A stretch of DNA of 61,928 nucleotides from Lachnospiraceae bacterium (GTDB lineage: Bacteria; Bacillota; Clostridia; Lachnospirales; Lachnospiraceae), in assembly GCA_017440375.1 (NCBI GenBank), contig JAFSHK010000008.1:1-61928 (forward strand), written 5' to 3'. Numbering within the stretch: position 1 is the stretch's first letter; each line of letters begins with the position of its first letter. Made by a program: the position numbers and the translations under genes. The notes under the pieces are model-generated. The model made no database searches. It was not told the origin of the DNA and worked only from the letters and a program-made list of their open reading frames with translations. Below, in pieces: positions 8,768-18,553 of this stretch.

Positions 8768-9637
8768 TTAGGCTAATGCCTGTCTTGCAAGCTCCAGACA
8801 CCCCATAATTCCCTGCTTATCGTCCAGACTTGCAGGAACGATATAATGCTCTAAATCTTCTATCTCTTTCGTTTTAATGTATTCTCCTAATAAAACTTTC
8901 ACATAGCTGCGAATCATCGGGAAAAGCTGTTCCTGATGCATAACGCCTCCTCCTAAAATAATCATTTCCGGTGATAAAACCATAATGTAGTCTACAAGCG
9001 CCTGTGCAATATAATAAGCTTCCAAATCCCATACTTCTTTTCGGTCTTTTAACTCGACAGCTTTCTGTCCCCAACGTCCTTCAATTGCAGGTCCTGCAGC
9101 AAGTCCTTCCAAGCATGTCTGATGATAGTGGCAATTTCCTTCGTATTCATCATCAGAACGTTTCCGAATCAACACATGACCCGCTTCCGGATGCATCATT
9201 CCGTGAAGAAGCTTTCCTTCCACATAAACACCAGCCCCCACGCCGGTTCCGATTGTAATATATATTACATTATTTTTTCCTCTTGCCTGCCCAAACGTAA
9301 CCTCTCCCAGTGCCGAGCCGTTTACATCTGTATCAAATCCAACCGGACAACCGAGTGCCTTTTGAAAAGCTCCTACAATATTACAATTAATCCATGGCAG
9401 CTTTGTCGTACTAGTAATATAACCATAGGTATCAGAATTCTTGTTTAAGTCAATGGGTCCAAAACATCCGATTCCTAATGCTTCAATTCCTTTTCCTTCA
9501 AAAAAAGCAATCAATTTTGGCAGAGTAATATCCGGTGTTTCTGTCGGAATCGACACCTGTTCAAAAATCTTCCCGGTTTCGTCTCCGATTGCGCAAACCA
9601 TCTTTGTACCGCCTGCTTCTAATGCTCCTAATCTCAT
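8768..9637 (-). CDS. ROK family sugar kinase (fructokinase-like)
   Basis: The 289-aa product has the ROK N-terminal phosphate loop LGALEAGGTKMVCAIG and the central catalytic region (FDTDVNGSALGE, ITIGTGVGAGV). The zinc-binding cluster GHVLI...CHYHQTCLEGL is the form found in fructokinases, so fructose or a related hexose is the likely substrate. ATG 9637 follows AGGAGAGAGG and begins 10 nt after the pseudo-ABC gene's stop, so the genes are cotranscribed. It would phosphorylate sugar delivered by the upstream ABC importer; exact sugar not proven. Confidence 0.88.
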   Translation of the reverse strand: MRLGALEAGGTKMVCAIGDETGKIFEQVSIPTETPDITLPKLIAFFEGKGIEALGIGCFGPIDLNKNSDTYGYITSTTKLPWINCNIVGAFQKALGCPVGFDTDVNGSALGEVTFGQARGKNNVIYITIGTGVGAGVYVEGKLLHGMMHPEAGHVLIRKRSDDEYEGNCHYHQTCLEGLAAGPAIEGRWGQKAVELKDRKEVWDLEAYYIAQALVDYIMVLSPEMIILGGGVMHQEQLFPMIRSYVKVLLGEYIKTKEIEDLEHYIVPASLDDKQGIMGCLELARQALA

Positions 9638-9647
9638 AGCCTCTCTC

Positions 9648-11141
9648 CTATTCATTCTTTGCATATTTTTCTTGATATAAATATAACCACGGAGTATTGA
9701 CAGGGAGTTTAATAAATTCTTCCTTATCATATATCTCCTGTACTTTTCCATGTTTTATCCGAATCAGTTTATCTGCCAGTGCTAGAGAATCTGCCAGATT
9801 TACCGCCAAAATCACTACTGCAATATTGCGGTCCAAAAAGCGTTCCAAAAGTTCCCAAATATGGCTTCGAATGGACACCTCCGCACTTTTAAAAGGTTGT
9901 ACACAGAATACAACTTTCGGATTCTGTAATAAAATTCTGGTATAAACCAAATCATATTTCTGTTTTTGACTTAATTTTTCTACTTTACATTGAAATACTT
10001 CTTTTCCCAGTAAATCACCATATTCATTGATAATGCTTTTGCGAATTCCTCCGGTCGTCCATACTCTTTTAAAACGATGATCCATATTAAAACAAAGATT
10101 GTCCATATAGCTCATCCTTGGAAACAGCATCGACTCCGTAGGCAATTCCTGAATTATCGCAATTCGTCTGTCCTCACAAGAAGAAAAGACGTTTCCTTGC
10201 AAAAGTATTTGTCCGCTGTCCGGCTTCTCTCCTTGAAACAGCGCAATCAGGTCTTTAAAAATCTTGTTATCCAGGTCTTGAAGCACCATGCATTCTCCCG
10301 GAAACACGCGAATATTTAAATCTCGCATACTACCATAATACAGGCGACTTGTTTCAAATACTGCCTGCCTGTTTTGATTCTCTTCTGTCGCACTAAGCTG
10401 TTGCCGTACCCATCTATCATAATCTTCAACACTTTCCAGTGAAAAAGTATCCGGAATATTTTCCCTTGTTTCAAAGCATTTAATAATCTGTCCGTTAACC
10501 ATGAGTGCTGTTTTGTCACATCTTTGCTTTGCCTCTTCAAAATGGGCCGTGATATAAAGAAATGAAATTCCCTTTCCGGCATAATACCGAATAATTTCAT
10601 GCAGCTTCACCAGCTCACTTTCACTGATAAAAGTACTGATATCCACCAATACAATCAGACGATTCCCTGACACCACTGCTTTCAAAAGCTCCACTACAAA
10701 ACATTCAAATGCAGACAATTCATCTATATAGGCATTGGCATCAATTTTCATTCCGATTTCTTCCAAAAAAGGCTGCAACTGTTTTTGTAAAACCTGCGGC
10801 TTTATCAACCACTTTTTGAAACCGGCACGCAACACAAAAATGTTATCTGCTACACTCAAATCTTCTGCCAGACAGCTTTTACTTTGAATCACACTAATGC
10901 GATTCGTCGTGTTTTGATGTCGCTTCCATTGATTTACTAATTTTTCCCGATAATAAACATACCCATAATGTAACGGCAAATTCTGCTTTAATAATTTCAG
11001 CAACGAATTCAAACCATAATGATTTACCGGAACGAGTCCGAAAACTTCTCCTGTCCGAATCGTCATACTGAAATTATCCAGACAAACATTACCCTGTTCT
11101 TTATAGGTCACTCGTTCCATACGCAAGGTTTCTGTTTTCAT
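9648..11141 (-). CDS. degenerate double ABC-ATPase (sugar-transporter type pseudo-ATPase)
   Basis: The 497-aa product has the same two-cassette layout as RbsA/MglA proteins, including the importer ATPase encoded at 16840-18354, but both cassettes are eroded at catalytic positions. The first P-loop reads GLVPVNHYGLNSLLKLL where GK[ST] is expected. The signature region is LSAFECFVVELLKAV. Walker B reads LIVLVDIST without its catalytic Glu. The second cassette has GECMVLQDLDNKIFKDL at the P-loop and VVFCVQPF where the family has DEP. Fold-determining segments remain and the frame is intact, so it is not a recent pseudogene. It overlaps the histidine kinase gene by 41 nt, with AGGG about 9 nt before ATG 11141. 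A regulatory or scaffolding role is inferred. Confidence 0.8.
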   Translation of the reverse strand: MKTETLRMERVTYKEQGNVCLDNFSMTIRTGEVFGLVPVNHYGLNSLLKLLKQNLPLHYGYVYYREKLVNQWKRHQNTTNRISVIQSKSCLAEDLSVADNIFVLRAGFKKWLIKPQVLQKQLQPFLEEIGMKIDANAYIDELSAFECFVVELLKAVVSGNRLIVLVDISTFISESELVKLHEIIRYYAGKGISFLYITAHFEEAKQRCDKTALMVNGQIIKCFETRENIPDTFSLESVEDYDRWVRQQLSATEENQNRQAVFETSRLYYGSMRDLNIRVFPGECMVLQDLDNKIFKDLIALFQGEKPDSGQILLQGNVFSSCEDRRIAIIQELPTESMLFPRMSYMDNLCFNMDHRFKRVWTTGGIRKSIINEYGDLLGKEVFQCKVEKLSQKQKYDLVYTRILLQNPKVVFCVQPFKSAEVSIRSHIWELLERFLDRNIAVVILAVNLADSLALADKLIRIKHGKVQEIYDKEEFIKLPVNTPWLYLYQEKYAKNE

Positions 11142-12174
11142 TCTTTATTTCCCTATCACTCATAATCGTCGGCAATGTAATTTCCACATCAGTTCCCACA
11201 TCCGGCATAGAATAAACATGTAAGCCATACTCTTCTCCGAACAGAAGATGAATTCTATTATTTACATTGACAAGGGCAATTCCACCTTTTGTTTCCGATT
11301 CTTTTGCCGAAAAAGCTTTTGCACTCTTCTGTAATCGCTCATTCATATCCGCAAGTGTTTTTGCGTCCATACCCACGCCATCATCCGAAATGCGAATTAA
11401 TAATCTTTTACCGGTACATTCCAGACAAATTTTTAAATGTCCGGTACCTATTTTGCATTCCGTTCCATGAATAATACTATTTTCCAGAATCGGTTGCATC
11501 GTAAGCTTCGGCAGACGATAACTGTAAATTTCTTCTTTTTCTTCTTCCTTACATTCTATCGACAAATGCAAGCGCTCTCCAAAACGATACTGTTGGATTT
11601 TAAAATAGGTTTTACAGTTTTGCAATTCTTCCTCTACCGAAACAAGATTCTCCACATTACTGATTGTATATCGGAAAAAGCTTGCTAATGCCTCTGTCAT
11701 ATCTGCCACACTGACAAGTCCGGCTATCAAAGCCTCACTACGAATACTTTCCAATGTGTTATACAAAAAATGCGGATTAATCTGATTTTGTAATGCCAAA
11801 TATTGAGCTTGTCTTTTGTTAATATTCAAAAGCTCTGCCGAACTCATAATCTCTTCTAATTTATGAGTCATCATTTCTGATGTAGGAGTCATCTGTGCCT
11901 CCTCACTGTTCGACATACTACTCGTTGTATAACCATCGAGAAAAAGCTTCATTCTTTCTTCCATTCTTCGATAGGGGCGTATTACCCAAATATAGGCCAA
12001 CCACACCCCAGTAGCCGCCAGCACACATCCTATTATAATAGGAATCAATAGAAAATGCTCTCCTCTTACGAAAGCTGCCAGGAGCATAGTCAGAAAAAAC
12101 GCCGTTAACACAACCGCACAAATTCCTAAAAAAAGTACCCTATATGATAGAAAATACCATTTATGTTTCTTCAT
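11101..12174 (-). CDS. sensor histidine kinase (LytS/YesM-type)
   Basis: The 357-aa product has two membrane helices at about residues 8-33 and 41-64 with only about seven residues between them, so it has essentially no extracellular ligand domain. A coiled linker leads to the His_kinase domain with LQNQINPHFLYNTLESIR (phospho-His). The HATPase domain has an N-box MQPILENSIIHG, a G-box DDGVGM and GGIALVNVNNRI. It pairs with the response regulator encoded 13 nt upstream. GGGGATG precedes ATG 12174. Lack of its own sensor suggests that a partner supplies the signal. Confidence 0.92.
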   Translation of the reverse strand: MKKHKWYFLSYRVLFLGICAVVLTAFFLTMLLAAFVRGEHFLLIPIIIGCVLAATGVWLAYIWVIRPYRRMEERMKLFLDGYTTSSMSNSEEAQMTPTSEMMTHKLEEIMSSAELLNINKRQAQYLALQNQINPHFLYNTLESIRSEALIAGLVSVADMTEALASFFRYTISNVENLVSVEEELQNCKTYFKIQQYRFGERLHLSIECKEEEKEEIYSYRLPKLTMQPILENSIIHGTECKIGTGHLKICLECTGKRLLIRISDDGVGMDAKTLADMNERLQKSAKAFSAKESETKGGIALVNVNNRIHLLFGEEYGLHVYSMPDVGTDVEITLPTIMSDREIKNENRNLAYGTSDL

Positions 12175-12187
12175 GCTTCATCCCCGC

Positions 12188-13771
12188 TTAGCCATACAGT
12201 TTTCGATATTCTGCCGGATTCACCCCTGTCATTTTGTGAAACGTATGTGTAAAATGTTTTCTGTCGTTATAGCCAACTTTTTCACAAATTTCTGCCACCG
12301 GCATATTGGTTTCACGCAGTAAATTTTTAGCCTCTTCCATGCGTACACGCATCAGATATTTTGCAAAGCCTTCTCCACATTCTTTCTTGAACATTGAACT
12401 GAAATAGGCTGCGCTAAATCCTACATATTCACAGACCTCTTCCAACGTAATATTTCTGTCAAAATTCTGCATAATGTATTGTTTGGCAATACGAATCGGA
12501 CGGGATGACTCATTCTCCTGCTTCTCCATTTTATCCAGAATCATTTTCTGCTGTAACTTTTTCAATTCTGCAAATAAACCATCTATTGTACCGCATTGCA
12601 TACACTGTGTTTCAAAATCCTTCTGTATTCCTTCGGCGTCCTCTACTCCGGTTCTTAATAGAAAAAAACGTCCCGCCATCAACACAAGTTCTAACACTTC
12701 CCGACCTCTGATATCAACAACTTCCATAATCGCCGTCTTCAAATTCTCATCTACCAGAAAAACCCCCTCTACATCCAATACTTCTATCGAATGCTCTGCT
12801 GCTTTCACATATTTATCCATAAGATTCTGCTTCTGAATACCAGAAGAAGGAGGAACATTTTCTAACAGTCTTCCGCATCCCTCTAACAATCTCTCAGCCA
12901 CTGCCATATCTGCTTTTTCCATTGATTTCAAAAGCATTTCCGGCTTTTCTTCTACACTTCCCAATCCAAGAGAAAAAGTCACATTCCCAAGAAGATATTT
13001 GTTGCCCTCTAACTGGTGTAAAAACTCATGCATTTGTCTTCGCACATCTTCTTTATCTTCCGGCATATAATTCAAGATACCGTATCCGGTATGCTCTTGA
13101 AAACCAAGAATGCAATCTTCACAACAAGTTGCAATACCTGCATCAAACAACTCCTTGGCTTTTTCCTGTACCACAAGAAAGGAAGAAGCATCCACTTTTT
13201 CCCTATCACAATCTATTTTTAATATAAAAGCCTGATAGTAACCGTCCGCTACCATAAAATGATATATCTCATGCAAGCTGTTAAAATTTAAATTTTTATT
13301 TTTACTGAGAATATCTTTTATCAAGCTTTCTCTGAGTCTGTTTAAATCATTCTGACTTCGTATAAAATTCTGTATTACATTTATTTCTTTTTTTCTTTCA
13401 TCCAATCGTACCTTAATTTTTTGCAAGGTCTCAAGCAATTCCTCTTGCTTAATTGGTTTCAGAATATAATTTTCCACGCCATAGGTCATCGCACTTCTTG
13501 CATATTCAAAATGTGCATAACCACTAATAATAATAATCTCTAAATCCGGTTTGATTTCCTTTGCCTGTTTAATCAGTTCCAACCCATTACATCCCGGCAT
13601 CCGGATGTCTGTAATTAAAATATCCGGATTACATTTTTCAATCAATGCTAATGCTTCTAATCCATTTTCAGCAGTTGCCGCTAATTCCATATCTAATGAT
13701 GACCAGTCCACCAATGCCTGCACTAGTCTGCAAATTAACTTTTCATCATCTGCTATGATTACCTTCCACAT
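12188..13771 (-). CDS. AraC-type response regulator (YesN-like)
   Basis: The 527-aa regulator has an N-terminal receiver (IIADDEKL, phosphoacceptor LITDIRMPG, LKPIK) and a middle region of about 280 residues with coiled-coil potential. Its C-terminal AraC double helix-turn-helix starts at about residue 425 (ITLEEVCEYVGFSAAYFSSM and VGYNDRKHFTHTFHK). It is paired with the adjacent histidine kinase and, by position, probably controls the upstream sugar importer; the repeats at 18455 and 18540 are candidate targets. GAGGGAAAG precedes ATG 13771. Confidence 0.93.
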   Translation of the reverse strand: MWKVIIADDEKLICRLVQALVDWSSLDMELAATAENGLEALALIEKCNPDILITDIRMPGCNGLELIKQAKEIKPDLEIIIISGYAHFEYARSAMTYGVENYILKPIKQEELLETLQKIKVRLDERKKEINVIQNFIRSQNDLNRLRESLIKDILSKNKNLNFNSLHEIYHFMVADGYYQAFILKIDCDREKVDASSFLVVQEKAKELFDAGIATCCEDCILGFQEHTGYGILNYMPEDKEDVRRQMHEFLHQLEGNKYLLGNVTFSLGLGSVEEKPEMLLKSMEKADMAVAERLLEGCGRLLENVPPSSGIQKQNLMDKYVKAAEHSIEVLDVEGVFLVDENLKTAIMEVVDIRGREVLELVLMAGRFFLLRTGVEDAEGIQKDFETQCMQCGTIDGLFAELKKLQQKMILDKMEKQENESSRPIRIAKQYIMQNFDRNITLEEVCEYVGFSAAYFSSMFKKECGEGFAKYLMRVRMEEAKNLLRETNMPVAEICEKVGYNDRKHFTHTFHKMTGVNPAEYRKLYG

Positions 13772-13902: not shown

Positions 13903-15708
13903 CTATTTGGAAAGTACAGAAACACCTGTATCGGATACAGCTCCGCCTAAGCTTTCACCTTCCAATGCCTGTACACAAGCTTCTACACCCATAGAACCCA
14001 TTTTGTCAGGATTCTGAGCCATTGTACAAAGTAAGTGTCCATCTTCAATCAGGCCAAGAATTGCATCTGATTTATCAAAACCTACACCTACGATTTCAGC
14101 GTTACCGGATGCTTTGATTGCATTGCCTGCACCTGTCGTAGAACCTTCGTTACATCCGAAGATACCAACTACACCCTGTGTAATATAATTCTCAGCGATG
14201 CTCTGGGATTTTGCTGCATCACCTTCACCATACTGTGTTTCGAGAAGTTCGAAATCTGTTCCTTCAAATGCGGAACGAAAACCTTCTTCTCTCATAACGC
14301 AAGAATCGGTTGCTGCGTTTACATTGATAATACCGATTGTACCACTTGTGATACCTTTTGCTTCTAAAGCTTTCTTCATTTCTTCGCCTGCTGTTGCGCC
14401 TGCTGCCTTGTTGTCAGTAGAGAATGTTGCTTCTGCTTCTACGTTTGCAGGTGAGTCAACATAAACAATTTTAACACCTGCTGCCGATGCTTCTTCTAAT
14501 GCGGAAGAGATAGCATCCGGACCGTTTGCTGCAACCATGATTGCATGATAACCGCCTGCAACTGCATTATTTACACATTCAATCTGCTGTGCATCATCTT
14601 TTGTGTTAGGAGACATAAATGTTACGGAAACACCAAGTTCCTCTGCTTTTTCCTGCGCACCATCATTTAAGGTTACCCAGTGCTGGTCAATGGAATCCAT
14701 TGTAATCAAAGCAATTTTCCATTCTTCGGATGCTGCTACATCAGTAGCTGCATCATCACTGCTTGCAGATGCATCTGCTGTTAGTACAGAAACACCTGTA
14801 TCTGTAACTGCACCACCAAGTTCCTCGCCGTTGATTGCTTTTACTGCTGCTTTTACACCTTCATATCCCATAACATCCGGATTCTGAGCCATTGTACAAA
14901 GTAAGAATCCATCGTCAATCAAACCAAGAATTGCATCTGATTTATCAAAACCTACACCGATAACATCTGTATTACCGGAAGCTTTGATTGCATTACCTGC
15001 ACCTGTTGTAGAACCTTCGTTACATCCGAAGATACCAACTACACCCTGTGTAATGTAGTTTTCTGCGATGCTCTGGGATTTTGCTGCATCACCTTCGCCA
15101 TACTGTGTTTCAAGAAGTTCGAAACCTGTTCCTTCGAATGCAGAACGGAAACCTTCTTCTCTCATAACACAAGAGTCTGTTGCGGCATTTACATTGATAA
15201 TACCAATTGTACCACTTGTGATACCTTTCGCTTCCAATGCTTTTTTCATCTCTTCACCTGCTGTTGCACCTGCTGCTTTGTTGTCTGTAGAGAAAGTTGC
15301 CTCTGCTTCTACATTTGCAGGTGAGTCAACATAGATAATCTTAACACCTGCATTAGCTGCTTCTTCCAACGCGGATGAAATAGCATCCGGACCGTTCGCT
15401 GCCACAATGATTGCTTTTGCACCCGCACTAACTGCGTTGTTAACACATTCGATCTGCTGTGCATCGTCTTTTGTGTTAGGTGCCATGAACTGAACTTCTA
15501 CACCTAACTCGGCTGCTGCCTCTTGAGCACCTTCATTTAAAGTTACCCAGTGCTGGTCAATAGAGTCCATTGTGATCAATGCGATCATAGTACCGGAGCC
15601 AGCTCCTTCACTACCGGATGTGGTAGTCTCCTCTGTCTTGCTTCCACATCCTGTTAACATTGCCATCATCATGCACAATGAACAGATTACTGCTAAAAGC
15701 TTTTTCAT
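13903..15708 (-). CDS. sugar-binding lipoprotein with two tandem binding domains
   Basis: The 601-aa product starts with a lipoprotein signal (LTGC, Cys21). Two nearly identical periplasmic-binding-protein (Peripla_BP_4, RbsB-like) domains follow at residues 41-311 and 331-601, joined by a 19-residue Ser/Ala/Asp linker. The repeat period is 290 residues (870 bp). Each copy starts IALITMDSIDQHWVTLN and ends GVSVL. A central stretch of over 110 residues differs at only about two positions, while the DNA differs at many third-codon positions. A normal family member has one such domain. It is the solute receptor of the adjacent ABC importer; the ligand is probably a monosaccharide. Confidence 0.92.
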   Translation of the reverse strand: MKKLLAVICSLCMMMAMLTGCGSKTEETTTSGSEGAGSGTMIALITMDSIDQHWVTLNEGAQEAAAELGVEVQFMAPNTKDDAQQIECVNNAVSAGAKAIIVAANGPDAISSALEEAANAGVKIIYVDSPANVEAEATFSTDNKAAGATAGEEMKKALEAKGITSGTIGIINVNAATDSCVMREEGFRSAFEGTGFELLETQYGEGDAAKSQSIAENYITQGVVGIFGCNEGSTTGAGNAIKASGNTDVIGVGFDKSDAILGLIDDGFLLCTMAQNPDVMGYEGVKAAVKAINGEELGGAVTDTGVSVLTADASASSDDAATDVAASEEWKIALITMDSIDQHWVTLNDGAQEKAEELGVSVTFMSPNTKDDAQQIECVNNAVAGGYHAIMVAANGPDAISSALEEASAAGVKIVYVDSPANVEAEATFSTDNKAAGATAGEEMKKALEAKGITSGTIGIINVNAATDSCVMREEGFRSAFEGTDFELLETQYGEGDAAKSQSIAENYITQGVVGIFGCNEGSTTGAGNAIKASGNAEIVGVGFDKSDAILGLIEDGHLLCTMAQNPDKMGSMGVEACVQALEGESLGGAVSDTGVSVLSK

Positions 15709-15808: not shown

Positions 15809-16825
15809 TTATGATGTTGCTTTTTTCTTGAAAACACCATTTCTTACTACAACGTCCAGAAGTACCGCAAATACAACGATGATACCGATTACAAGTCTCT
15901 GGATACCAACCTGTGCACCAATCATGTTAAGACCATTTTCAAGCGTCTGCCATACAGCAGAACCTGCAAGTGTTCCAAGAAGAATACCAGTACCGCCAAG
16001 TGGTGAAATACCACCTATAACGCCTGCTGCAACAGCGTACATTTCGTACATATTACCAGCTTCCATGTTACCCATACTAGCCTGACCACAAAGAATCAAA
16101 CCAACTACGAAGGAACAGAATGCACTTACCAAGTATGTTTTTGTAACAGTAGCTACTACGTTCACACCAGATAATTTCGCTGCGTCTACATTGGAACCGA
16201 TTGCATAAATATGACGACCTGTTCTTGTTTTAGAAAGCAGGAAGAAAAATACTATAAATAAGATAATAGCAATCCAAAAAGTATTATATACACCTGCCGT
16301 CTGTCCATAATAAAACACATTCTGGAAACTTTCTGCCGGTTCTTTTCCAATACCGGAAGCAATTGCATCTGTATTACGGTTTCCGTTTACCATGTATGCA
16401 ATGCCTCTTGCTACGAACATGGTTCCAAGTGTAGCGATGAATGGCGGCAGCTGGCATTTTCCAACCAGAAAACCATTTATAATACCAATTACCATACAGC
16501 AGCAGAATGAAATAAGAATTGCTACTAACGGGTTAACTCCCATTGTCATAAGAGTAGCGGTAATCATAGAACTCATACCAACTACAGAACCGATAGACAA
16601 GTCAATGTTACCTGTAATCAGTACATAACTCTGTCCGATACCAATAATTAAATATTTTGACATGGAACGAAGTAAGTTCATAACGTTCTGTCCAGAAAAT
16701 ACATTTGGATTGATAATACCAAATGCGATGTAAATAATAATCAAACCTATAAAAGCTGTCAAAGCTCCACCCATACCTCTAACGCTTAAAAGCTTTTTAA
16801 TCGGATTTTGTTTTTTCTGATTCAT
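15809..16825 (-). CDS. sugar ABC transporter permease (RbsC-like)
   Basis: The 338-aa integral membrane protein has about nine to ten hydrophobic helices and matches the branched-chain/ribose permease family (QSYVLITGNIDLSIGSVVG, FVARGIAYMVNG, AAGVIGGISPLGGTG). AGGAGGAGAT precedes ATG 16825. It sits between the ATPase (15-nt gap) and the binding lipoprotein (100-nt gap) in the order usual for this importer class. It probably works as a homodimer with the two-cassette ATPase. Confidence 0.95.
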   Translation of the reverse strand: MNQKKQNPIKKLLSVRGMGGALTAFIGLIIIYIAFGIINPNVFSGQNVMNLLRSMSKYLIIGIGQSYVLITGNIDLSIGSVVGMSSMITATLMTMGVNPLVAILISFCCCMVIGIINGFLVGKCQLPPFIATLGTMFVARGIAYMVNGNRNTDAIASGIGKEPAESFQNVFYYGQTAGVYNTFWIAIILFIVFFFLLSKTRTGRHIYAIGSNVDAAKLSGVNVVATVTKTYLVSAFCSFVVGLILCGQASMGNMEAGNMYEMYAVAAGVIGGISPLGGTGILLGTLAGSAVWQTLENGLNMIGAQVGIQRLVIGIIVVFAVLLDVVVRNGVFKKKATS

Positions 16826-16839
16826 TTCTTTATCTCCTC

Positions 16840-18354
16840 CTATTTCTCATCACTGACTATTTTCTTCTCAAACTGTGTTGCCAGTGTCAGAATTTCATTT
16901 TGTGTGATTCCTTCTGCCATTACTTCACCGGTAATACGGCCGTCGCACATAACAAGAATTCTATCAGCAATTCCCATTACTTCCGGCATTTCAGAGGAAA
17001 CAAAAACAACAGCAATTCCCTGTTTTTTCAATTCGTTCATTAGGTTATAAATTTCAACCTTCGCAGCAACATCAATTCCTCTTGTCGGTTCATCAAAAAT
17101 AACCACTCTGGAATTTCTTGCCAGCCATTTTCCAACCACTACCTTCTGCTGGTTACCACCGGAAAGATTCTTGGCATCAATCTCAACCGTTGGTGTTTTG
17201 ATTTTGAGATTTTTCACTGCCTTCTTACACATTTCTATTTCTTTATTTCTATTAACAACCCCTAATTTATTACACAAAAGATCCAGATTCGGAAGTGCAA
17301 TATTATGTCTGATACTGAGTTTTGTACAAAGACCATCTTTCTTTCTGTCTTCCGGTGCAAGTACAATACCGGCTTTAATTGCATCCATAGGACAATTGAC
17401 TTTTACTTCTTTTCCATCCAGAATGATTTCACCGCTTTCCTTCGGGTCAACGCCAAATATTGCCCTTGTGGTTTCTGTTCTTCCGGCACCCATCAGTCCT
17501 GCGAAACCAACTATTTCACCTTCGTACACAGAGAAATTAATATCTCTTACCATACGTCCTGCGTTCAGATTTTTTACTTCGAAAATCTTCTTTCCTTTTT
17601 CACAAGATACGCGAGGAAATTTTTCTTTAATTTCTCGACCTACCATATACGCAATGATTTCATCCATTGTCACATCTGCAAAATTCATTGATGTTATGTA
17701 CTGACCATCTCGCATGATGGTAACACGGTCTACAATGTGCTGCAATTCCTCTAACCTGTGGGAAATATATACAATGCCGCATCCCTTTGCTTTTAGTTCT
17801 TTGATGATACGGAATAGGTCTTCAATTTCTTTTGCCGTAAGTGCCGATGTCGGCTCATCCATTATCAGCACCTTGGCATTGATTGACAGTGCCTTGGCAA
17901 TTTCTACCATCTGTTGTTTGGAAACAGGAAGTTCTCCTACTGTCTGCTTCGGATCCAAATCAATCTTCAAATCATCCAGAATTCTCCGCGCTTCCTGTTC
18001 CATCTCATGATTGGAAAGAATGATTCCCCTTTTTTTCTCTCTTCCAAGGAACATATTCTCTGCAACCGACAAGTGCTTACACATATTCAATTCCTGATGA
18101 ATAATTGCAACACCGACTTCCTGTGCAAGCTTCGGACTTAAATCTCCATATTCCTTCCCGAAAATCTGCATCTTTCCTTCATCTCTTGTATAAACACCAC
18201 TAAGAATTTTCATTAAAGTACTTTTTCCCGCACCATTCTCACCAAGAAGTGCCAAAACTTCTCCGGAACGAAGCTCAAACTTTACATGGTCAAGTGCTTT
18301 AACACCCGGAAAGCTTTTGCAAATATCTTCCATGGATACTATTATCTCACCCAT
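16840..18354 (-). CDS. sugar ABC transporter ATP-binding protein (RbsA/MglA-like)
   Basis: The product is 504 aa from the chosen start. The first cassette has an intact P-loop LLGENGAGKSTLMKIL, a signature-like LPVSKQQMVEIAKAL and Walker B LIMDEPTSALTAKE. The second has the variant GLMGAGRTETTR P-loop usual for the C-terminal half of this family, the signature LSGGNQQKVVVGKWL and VVIFDEPTRGID. ATG 18354 (MGEIIVSMEDICKSF) is preferred over 18375 because GGAGG sits 7 nt before it. It is the first gene of the sugar operon and powers import. Confidence 0.96.
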   Translation of the reverse strand: MGEIIVSMEDICKSFPGVKALDHVKFELRSGEVLALLGENGAGKSTLMKILSGVYTRDEGKMQIFGKEYGDLSPKLAQEVGVAIIHQELNMCKHLSVAENMFLGREKKRGIILSNHEMEQEARRILDDLKIDLDPKQTVGELPVSKQQMVEIAKALSINAKVLIMDEPTSALTAKEIEDLFRIIKELKAKGCGIVYISHRLEELQHIVDRVTIMRDGQYITSMNFADVTMDEIIAYMVGREIKEKFPRVSCEKGKKIFEVKNLNAGRMVRDINFSVYEGEIVGFAGLMGAGRTETTRAIFGVDPKESGEIILDGKEVKVNCPMDAIKAGIVLAPEDRKKDGLCTKLSIRHNIALPNLDLLCNKLGVVNRNKEIEMCKKAVKNLKIKTPTVEIDAKNLSGGNQQKVVVGKWLARNSRVVIFDEPTRGIDVAAKVEIYNLMNELKKQGIAVVFVSSEMPEVMGIADRILVMCDGRITGEVMAEGITQNEILTLATQFEKKIVSDEK

Positions 18355-18373
18355 TACATACCTCCACGCTTTC

Positions 18374-18387
18374 AAAACAATTGTTTT
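18374..18387. promoter_or_regulatory. 14-bp palindrome in the leader of the sugar importer operon
   Basis: AAAACAATTGTTTT is a perfect palindrome between the putative -10 and the ribosome binding site, a position suited to a repressor operator. Confidence 0.4.
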
Positions 18388-18397
18388 CGTTTTTTAC

Positions 18398-18429
18398 AGT
18401 ATAGCAAAGAGACCTTATATAAATAAGGT
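18398..18429 (-). promoter_or_regulatory. promoter and overlapping inverted repeat of the sugar operon
   Basis: The -10 TATACT (18398-18403) lies 17 bp from a poor -35 TTATTT (18421-18426), as expected for an activator-dependent promoter. An inverted repeat, ACCTTAT-ATAA-ATAAGGT (18412-18429), covers the -35. Confidence 0.5.
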
Positions 18430-18454
18430 GGTAGATTTCTTTCTTTTAGGGGGA

Positions 18455-18468
18455 TTTTTATGCACTTT
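18455..18468. promoter_or_regulatory. direct repeat copy 1, candidate regulator site
   Basis: TTTTTATGCACTTT occurs here and again at 18540. This copy is centred roughly 70 bp upstream of the inferred transcription start, a typical activator position. The AraC-type response regulator is the obvious candidate ligand. Confidence 0.45.
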
Positions 18469-18539
18469 TCATACCCATTTCATCTATTTTTTCGTTTATT
18501 TTCGTCAAATTATAATTATTGAACAGTTTTTGCTTATTG

Positions 18540-18553
18540 TTTTTATGCACTTT
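18540..18553. promoter_or_regulatory. direct repeat copy 2, candidate regulator site
   Basis: This is an identical copy of the 14-mer at 18455, 85 bp away in the same orientation, close to eight helical turns. Confidence 0.45.

Follow-up and report, generated by a model that had tools for sequence, protein, structure and literature searches.

A degenerate RbsA-type ATPase tied to a receptor-less sensor kinase in Lachnospiraceae

The window discussed here is a stretch of 61,928 nucleotides from a Lachnospiraceae bacterium (contig JAFSHK010000008.1; source assembly of 1.94 Mb, 68% complete). On its minus strand it encodes a twin-cassette, RbsA-like ATPase of 497 aa without catalytic motifs (9648..11141), hereafter called the pseudo-ATPase, and a receptor-less sensor kinase of 357 aa (11101..12174; His_kinase, PF06580). 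Near-obligate linkage, natural fusion in two genomes and parallel evolution strongly support a coupling between the two proteins, as had been claimed in a sequence-only reading of this DNA. On balance we favour the view that the pseudo-ATPase serves as input subunit to the kinase, that the kinase controls the sugar transporter of the locus, and that the pseudo-ATPase probably docks on the permease or on the complex of RbsA and permease.

The twin-cassette layout that the sequence-only reading had recognised is borne out by several lines of evidence. Pfam ABC_tran matches the pseudo-ATPase in two stretches (6.6e-15), NCBIfam sugar-ATPase models cover residues 3-470, well under their cut-off (120 bits vs 699), and the AlphaFold2 model consists of two nucleotide-binding domains (NBDs; predicted local distance difference test score, pLDDT, 85.4; predicted template modelling score, pTM, 0.80). 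DppD and OppD of solved importers occupy ranks 2-8 by E-value when this model is compared with the PDB (TM about 0.70), rank 1 being a component of the methyl-coenzyme M reductase activation complex; a search of the PDB by sequence for a CUT2 ATPase structure gave none so named among the best 60 of 100 matches. With RbsA (CUT2) ATPases the pseudo-ATPase shares two ABC cassettes in one chain, its length and probably its origin. It differs from them in being tied to a kinase and in lacking the motifs of a working motor, namely P-loop, Walker B Asp-Glu and signature of NBD1 and signature and Walker B of NBD2.

Alignment with the intact RbsA of the same locus (16840..18375, minus strand; identified by Pfam and NCBIfam matches and by alignment), whose gene lies 5.7 kb upstream as had been read from the sequence, shows that the window copy has lost the P-loop, signature and catalytic Glu of each cassette, as well as the H-loop His. 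The earlier claim that signature and catalytic Glu are lost thus holds for both cassettes. Its companion, the loss of Lys from both P-loops, holds for the first cassette only: RbsA itself already carries Arg at the second site (98/98 companion RbsA proteins), so that this loss is not special to the pseudo-ATPase and was rejected as a distinguishing feature, although the whole second P-loop is nonetheless gone. Among 171 pseudo-ATPases of 430-560 aa (fused, half-length and broken proteins were dropped) none has the intact NBD1 motif set or any NBD2 motif tested, including the Walker B2 Asp-Glu, and the signature is absent from all. Remnants of NBD1 persist in a few (12 keep a P-loop, 14 the Q-loop Gln, and 11 each the Walker B Asp-Glu and the H-loop His). 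RbsA-type ATPases from the same loci retain the P-loop in 146/147 and both Walker B Asp-Glu pairs in 147/147. The sequence-only reading had named regained Walker motifs in relatives as a sign of local decay; all 12 P-loop carriers belong to distant branches, and near the window an intact P-loop is nowhere restored. Several of the 11 carriers of the Walker B1 Asp-Glu are fairly close relatives of the window (L135-L145, L152; L numbers denote loci or stretches read, G numbers genomes). In a narrower set, Lys occupies the P-loop Lys column in 26/112 pseudo-ATPases, nearly all without the remaining motif. The former FDEPTRGID of NBD2 is replaced by CIQPFKGAD, in which Pro (112/112), Phe (102/112) and Gln (95/112) are themselves conserved. 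The loss of catalysis is therefore family-wide and ancient rather than a local decay. Names of the kind "sugar ABC transporter ATP-binding protein", which we take to be those that databases give to pseudo-ATPase genes, would be misleading.

The kinase of the window carries His_kinase and HATPase_c domains with intact H-box (NPHFLYN) and N-box. The large extracellular sensor domain usual in PF06580 kinases, presumably those named the YesM/LytS type, is absent from it: the structural model displays helices at 9-37 and 43-79 with a turn of 5 residues between them, and hence no ectodomain. The sequence-only reading was right on this point, its estimate of about seven residues between the helices being slightly too high. 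Kinases without any predicted transmembrane (TM) helix stand next to a pseudo-ATPase in L179, L181, L073 and L254, and share a stretch with one in L205, L233 and L250; three similar cases (L053, L144, L186) were excluded because the proteins are broken or their starts uncertain. Judged from their sequences, such kinases could not sense the outside unaided. In these surveys TM helices were predicted by a simple hydropathy rule, and starts were taken as the first start codon.

Linkage was assessed with the kinase alone as query. A search of 397 family genomes, in which at most five candidates per genome were scored, gave 103 places including the window's own, and the stretches around them contain 102 kinases of at least 150 bits outside the window. 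A pseudo-ATPase is encoded on the same strand for 92 of these 102, directly downstream for 90, one of which is fused. Absence of the pseudo-ATPase from most loci that keep kinase and regulator, which would have counted against the sequence-only reading, is not what these loci show. The ten remaining kinases comprise three that adjoin an RbsA-like intermediate (L185, L244, L245), one with fragments (L247), four with a pseudo-ATPase elsewhere in the stretch (L188, L205, L233, L250) and two without any (L228, L229), which have ectodomains of 156 and 241 residues. In L185 (6032-9289) a kinase with a 217-residue ectodomain stands beside a P-loop-bearing, RbsA-like paralogue, an arrangement that possibly represents the ancestral stage. 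Half-length, single-cassette pseudo-ATPases in L195, L196 and L205 lie upstream of the regulator gene or farther away, not behind the kinase. The 41-nt overlap of the pseudo-ATPase and kinase genes in the window, noted before and confirmed by the coordinates of the open reading frames (ORFs), is atypical; the commonest spacing between kinase stop and pseudo-ATPase start is a 4-nt overlap (65/168), and any overlap occurs in 105/168.

Lower-scoring kinases yielded only one case as a control, and a census of three genomes was used instead. It contains 44 PF06580 kinases, nine of them short and situated in pseudo-ATPase loci already read. None of the other 35 has a pseudo-ATPase-like protein in stretches of about 8 kb; 34 of them have open frames of 440-659 codons, and at least 23 possess an ectodomain of at least 100 residues between their helices, a count in which ten loci (11 kinases, with ORFs of 432-638 aa) could not be parsed and row L290 probably repeats the kinase of L291. 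In a contig scan with the pseudo-ATPase as query, 80 of 155 relatives were retained; for 79 of them the kinase lies no more than 1.3 kb upstream, and the remaining one begins at the end of a contig. The 83/83 kinases with a pseudo-ATPase in L078-L157 and L213-L227 constitute no test, as these loci were fetched by pseudo-ATPase similarity. The regulator gene directly precedes the kinase gene in 182/185 loci, and an RbsA-type ATPase occurs within 9 kb of the kinase in 146/185. The transporter genes lie before, behind or opposite the kinase and pseudo-ATPase pair, depending on the locus.

Nature has also joined the two proteins in one chain. A fused kinase of 616 aa in G178 matches the pseudo-ATPase profile with its C-terminal 236 residues (97.6 bits, independent E-value 5e-29), and the RbsA profile scores 38.5 bits on the same region; at E<=10 neither the 112 control kinases nor the 2000 shuffles yielded a match to the pseudo-ATPase profile. 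A second fusion, in G776, shares 87% identity with this form across 615 of 616 aa. In G777, from the same genus, the genes stand in the same order but kinase and full-length pseudo-ATPase are separate, and 14 of the 17 genomes of this genus gave no match at E<=1e-40. Fused and half-length pseudo-ATPases alike represent the first cassette.

Purifying selection on the pseudo-ATPase is strong. The ratio of nonsynonymous to synonymous substitution rates (dN/dS), a check proposed in the sequence-only reading, amounts to 0.055, 0.055, 0.065 and 0.073 in the 4/9 pairs with finite dS (0.07-1.13) and resembles that of kinase and regulator; pairs involving the window copy, L078 included, are saturated. 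In a tree of 104 rows (of 342 before redundancy filtering), which has many long deep branches and some uncertain joins, the 23 RbsA rows fall on one side of a single branch with support 87. L244 forms their first branch, followed by L185, L245/L231, the P-loop-keeping forms and the P-loop-less bulk. If rooted on RbsA, the tree would describe a graded series from an RbsA-like paralogue.

The nearest named relatives of the pseudo-ATPase are from Lachnospiraceae metagenome-assembled genomes (MAGs), L078 (86% identity) and L079, and further carriers by name include [Clostridium] clostridioforme, [C.] symbiosum, Enterocloster bolteae (MAG), Hespellia, Anaerotruncus and Chakrabartyella. Within the class, seven GTDB family codes contain the pseudo-ATPase, one of them as a fragment only. 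The system is patchy across genomes, not universal: 16 of 391 genomes matched in a class survey by pseudo-ATPase, own included, and the 15 others consist of 11 with the row of regulator, kinase and pseudo-ATPase, two with RbsA (L225, L226), one with a 507-base fragment and one with an orphan pseudo-ATPase. Matches of such searches near 1e-30 include true RbsA (L069, L070, L072, L074), and the G849 protein from a genus search with matches in 11 of 60 genomes is, at 22% identity, probably RbsA as well. Viral contigs, examined for close relatives, gave seven stretches that fitted a pattern, with no relative among them.

Conservation along the pseudo-ATPase gives a clue to its place in the system. 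Residues 94-106 (LSVADNIFVLR), which follow the first Q-loop, reach the 99th percentile of conservation and rank top in likeness to RbsA, and the matching segment of NBD2 lies at the 95th percentile; the former catalytic segments are spread between the 25th and 87th. In importers, the region after the first Q-loop meets the coupling helix of the permease, as known from work on MalK. Evolutionary distances across 81 window-like loci correlate most strongly between pseudo-ATPase and kinase (0.86) and between pseudo-ATPase and RbsA (0.79), compared with 0.65 for kinase and RbsA, and the full partial correlations of the pseudo-ATPase with kinase (0.29), regulator (0.38) and RbsA (0.27) all have intervals above zero. 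By evolutionary distance the pseudo-ATPase thus stands between the transporter and kinase blocks. On these grounds we prefer a role for it as a bridge that links the transporter to the kinase.

The genes follow one another on the minus strand in the order rbsA, permease, tandem-domain binding protein, regulator, kinase, pseudo-ATPase and sugar kinase. The RbsC-like permease (15809..16825, 338 aa) is a BPD_transp_2 protein, the sugar-binding protein (13903..15708) has two tandem Peripla_BP_4 domains, and the AraC-type response regulator (12188..13771) combines Response_reg and HTH_18. The two Peripla_BP_4 domains appear near-identical by eye, and many related loci have single-length solute-binding protein ORFs. 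At the end of the row lies a ROK-family sugar kinase (8768..9751), for which the nearest model is a fructokinase, below its cut-off, and the real start is probably internal.

Upstream of rbsA we found a tandem element, TGCATAAAAAWCCCCC, followed by a second C block and then by TGCTATACT. The minus strand of the window has half-site 1 of this operator (TGCATAAAAATCCCCC) at 18449..18464, half-site 2 (CTACCACCTTAT) at 18423..18434 and the -10-like element (TGCTATACT) at 18398..18406, at a near-constant distance to the operator across loci. The operator scores at least 15 bits in 48/72 non-redundant rbsA upstreams, window included, and in none of 186 pseudo-ATPase, 183 kinase and 171 regulator upstreams. 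Neither does it do so in the eight rbsA upstreams from kinase-less stretches, one of which, L060, is a contig that starts inside a pseudo-ATPase. Median operator scores of shuffled sets under the identical procedure were 8.0-8.9 vs 21.8 for the real set, and a model trained on half of the regions placed 24/36 held-out rbsA upstreams above the 99th percentile of shuffles. The blocks are spaced by 21-22 bp in 32/46, and block 1 is 55-56 bp from the end of the -10 element in 28/32. A two-block pattern modelled on the copy in the window has a single match in the genome; the half-site pattern with two mismatches allowed has 29 matches, vs 8 for the reversed control. A further TGCATAAAAA half-element without a C block is present at 18535-18549, about 85 bp upstream of half-site 1. 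The transporter promoter is thus the probable target of the kinase and regulator pair, and their linkage suggests that the regulator would bind the operator.

Several observations weigh against a transporter-docked input subunit. The partial correlations with kinase and RbsA are modest, that with the permease is -0.07 (interval -0.25 to 0.13), and over all 128 loci the contrast shrinks (pseudo-ATPase and RbsA 0.84, kinase and RbsA 0.81). As "LTVAEN" is common after the Q-loop of NBDs, this segment may owe its conservation to structure. Conservation is also high in the former Walker B2 and H2 regions (85th and 87th percentile), which would suit a ligand site too. In a coupling analysis of 169 pairs, run on a reduced alphabet, inter-protein pairs were as frequent as their number predicts and intra-protein pairs were noise-like too, so that this analysis had no power. 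Further, in 39/185 kinase loci no RbsA-type ATPase is seen at a distance of up to 9 kb (contig ends cut some of these loci), the operator falls below 15 bits in 24/72 rbsA upstreams, and a short His_kinase protein of 333 aa (L286 in G085) has no predicted TM helix and neither pseudo-ATPase nor RbsA in its stretch. Finally, no kinase or regulator was found near the pseudo-ATPase at L256:18114-19568 (G726), the only clear orphan seen. The long ORF in front of this orphan resembles ileS by eye.

The main rival to the bridge is that the pseudo-ATPase feeds the kinase by sensing a cytoplasmic ligand, such as a sugar phosphate or nucleotide at a remodelled cassette interface, without touching the transporter. 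We regard this as unlikely, yet as a serious contender: linkage and fusion with the kinase need no permease, kinases without TM helix exist, new conserved motifs occupy the old nucleotide sites, a few deep branches keep the P-loop, and the partial correlation with the permease lies close to zero. However, conservation is higher still in the segment after the first Q-loop than at those sites, and the pseudo-ATPase tracks RbsA beyond the tracking of the kinase itself. The sequence-only reading had proposed that the pseudo-ATPase either senses the transport state or competes for the permease; the segment conservation and the correlation with RbsA suit this inference, and the permease correlation counters it. 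That it chiefly throttles the transporter by competing with RbsA, the kinase being merely co-transcribed, seems improbable to us. It does share fold and length with RbsA and retains the docking segment, but its gene follows the kinase in 90/102 cases whereas the transporter genes vary in position, it is fused to the kinase in nature, and the half-length and fused forms would be poor mimics of RbsA.

Still less probable is that the pseudo-ATPase is a structural, catalytically inactive NBD in a heteromeric transporter and plays no part in signalling. Degenerate sites are known in ABC dimers, for example in BmrCD as far as an excerpted account goes, but the locus already has an intact twin-NBD RbsA and the pseudo-ATPase is linked to kinases of one type. 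We give almost no credence to a pseudogene or a decay within one lineage, which the motif loss of the window copy alone might suggest; it is rejected by the low dN/dS, by a loss common to 171 homologues and by occurrence in seven GTDB family codes. An ordinary second ATPase was likewise rejected by kinase linkage and motif loss.

For the docked input subunit we envisage the following mechanism, in which we infer the docking, the transport-state signal and the binding of the regulator. A former RbsA-type motor would have become the dedicated input subunit of a receptor-less kinase. Keeping its old docking face after the first-cassette Q-loop, it may sit on the sugar permease or on the RbsA-permease complex and, because it is unable to hydrolyse ATP, would rest in a position set by the conformation or occupancy of the transporter. 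This position could be handed to the kinase via a cytoplasmic contact, and kinase and regulator would act on the transporter promoter via the tandem operator, so that transcription of the transporter would be coupled in a loop to the demand for transport. It is possible, and we propose it with some reserve, that such a decoy motor (a catalytically dead copy of the transporter's own ATPase that would dock on the transporter instead of or next to the working motor, read its state at no cost in ATP and drive a sensorless kinase, unanchored in some lineages) is a general way of transport sensing for RbsABC-type importers in Lachnospiraceae and relatives.

UhpC, a paralogue of a transporter, offers an instructive comparison. 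In the UhpABC system it senses glucose 6-phosphate and acts on UhpB, and the transporter gene is controlled (excerpt of PMC11077982). As far as that excerpt goes, the likeness lies in a separate sensor protein that acts on a kinase and controls a transporter gene; UhpC differs in being a membrane protein, in contrast to the paralogue of a motor ATPase, predicted to be soluble, considered here. A Uhp-like mode would be consistent with a paralogue that lacks ATPase motifs and is linked and fused to the kinase. In Bce modules (BceAB-BceRS), an ABC transporter signals to a kinase without sensing domain to raise transporter expression (excerpt of PMC10314905). The kinase of the window likewise lacks a sensor domain and is encoded beside transporter genes; control of the transporter genes by the regulator, a Bce trait, may apply here as well, the operator standing before rbsA in 48/72 cases. 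The Bce transporter itself, in the account excerpted, contacts the kinase through the membrane, whereas the kinase here is linked to a separate, soluble paralogue of the ATPase that is catalytically dead. BceB-type permeases have a large extracellular domain, unlike the BPD_transp_2 permease of the window, and the present importer is a sugar importer of RbsABC type, some of the kinases having no predicted membrane helix. XylFII-LytS and CuaDSR, in which a clostridial sensor kinase (LytS in one) and, in Cua, an AraC-type regulator control a sugar ABC transporter (excerpt of PMC10384115), share the extra transporter-derived component. According to this excerpt, theirs is an extracellular solute-binding protein on the ectodomain of the kinase, in contrast to a kinase without ectodomain and a cytoplasmic dead ATPase. 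A transporter, an adaptor or an enzyme-type protein gives the kinase its input in Pst-PhoU-PhoR, the regulatory hydrogenase HoxBC-HoxJ and DcuB/DctA-DcuS, none of which, as excerpted from a review (PMC6978683), has a dead ATPase paralogue as fixed kinase partner. Among the titles and abstract beginnings listed from the openly licensed literature (subscription papers being outside this scope), none describes a histidine kinase that has a degenerate ABC ATPase as its partner.

If the proposed role is true, it would explain the source of the signal for receptor-less kinases of common gut-type bacteria, and it would mean that a transporter motor can be reused as a signal adaptor once catalysis is gone. 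The series from RbsA-like paralogues (L244, L185) over P-loop-keeping to P-loop-less forms, together with the fusion, makes this path from motor to signal testable, and the operator would provide a ready reporter.

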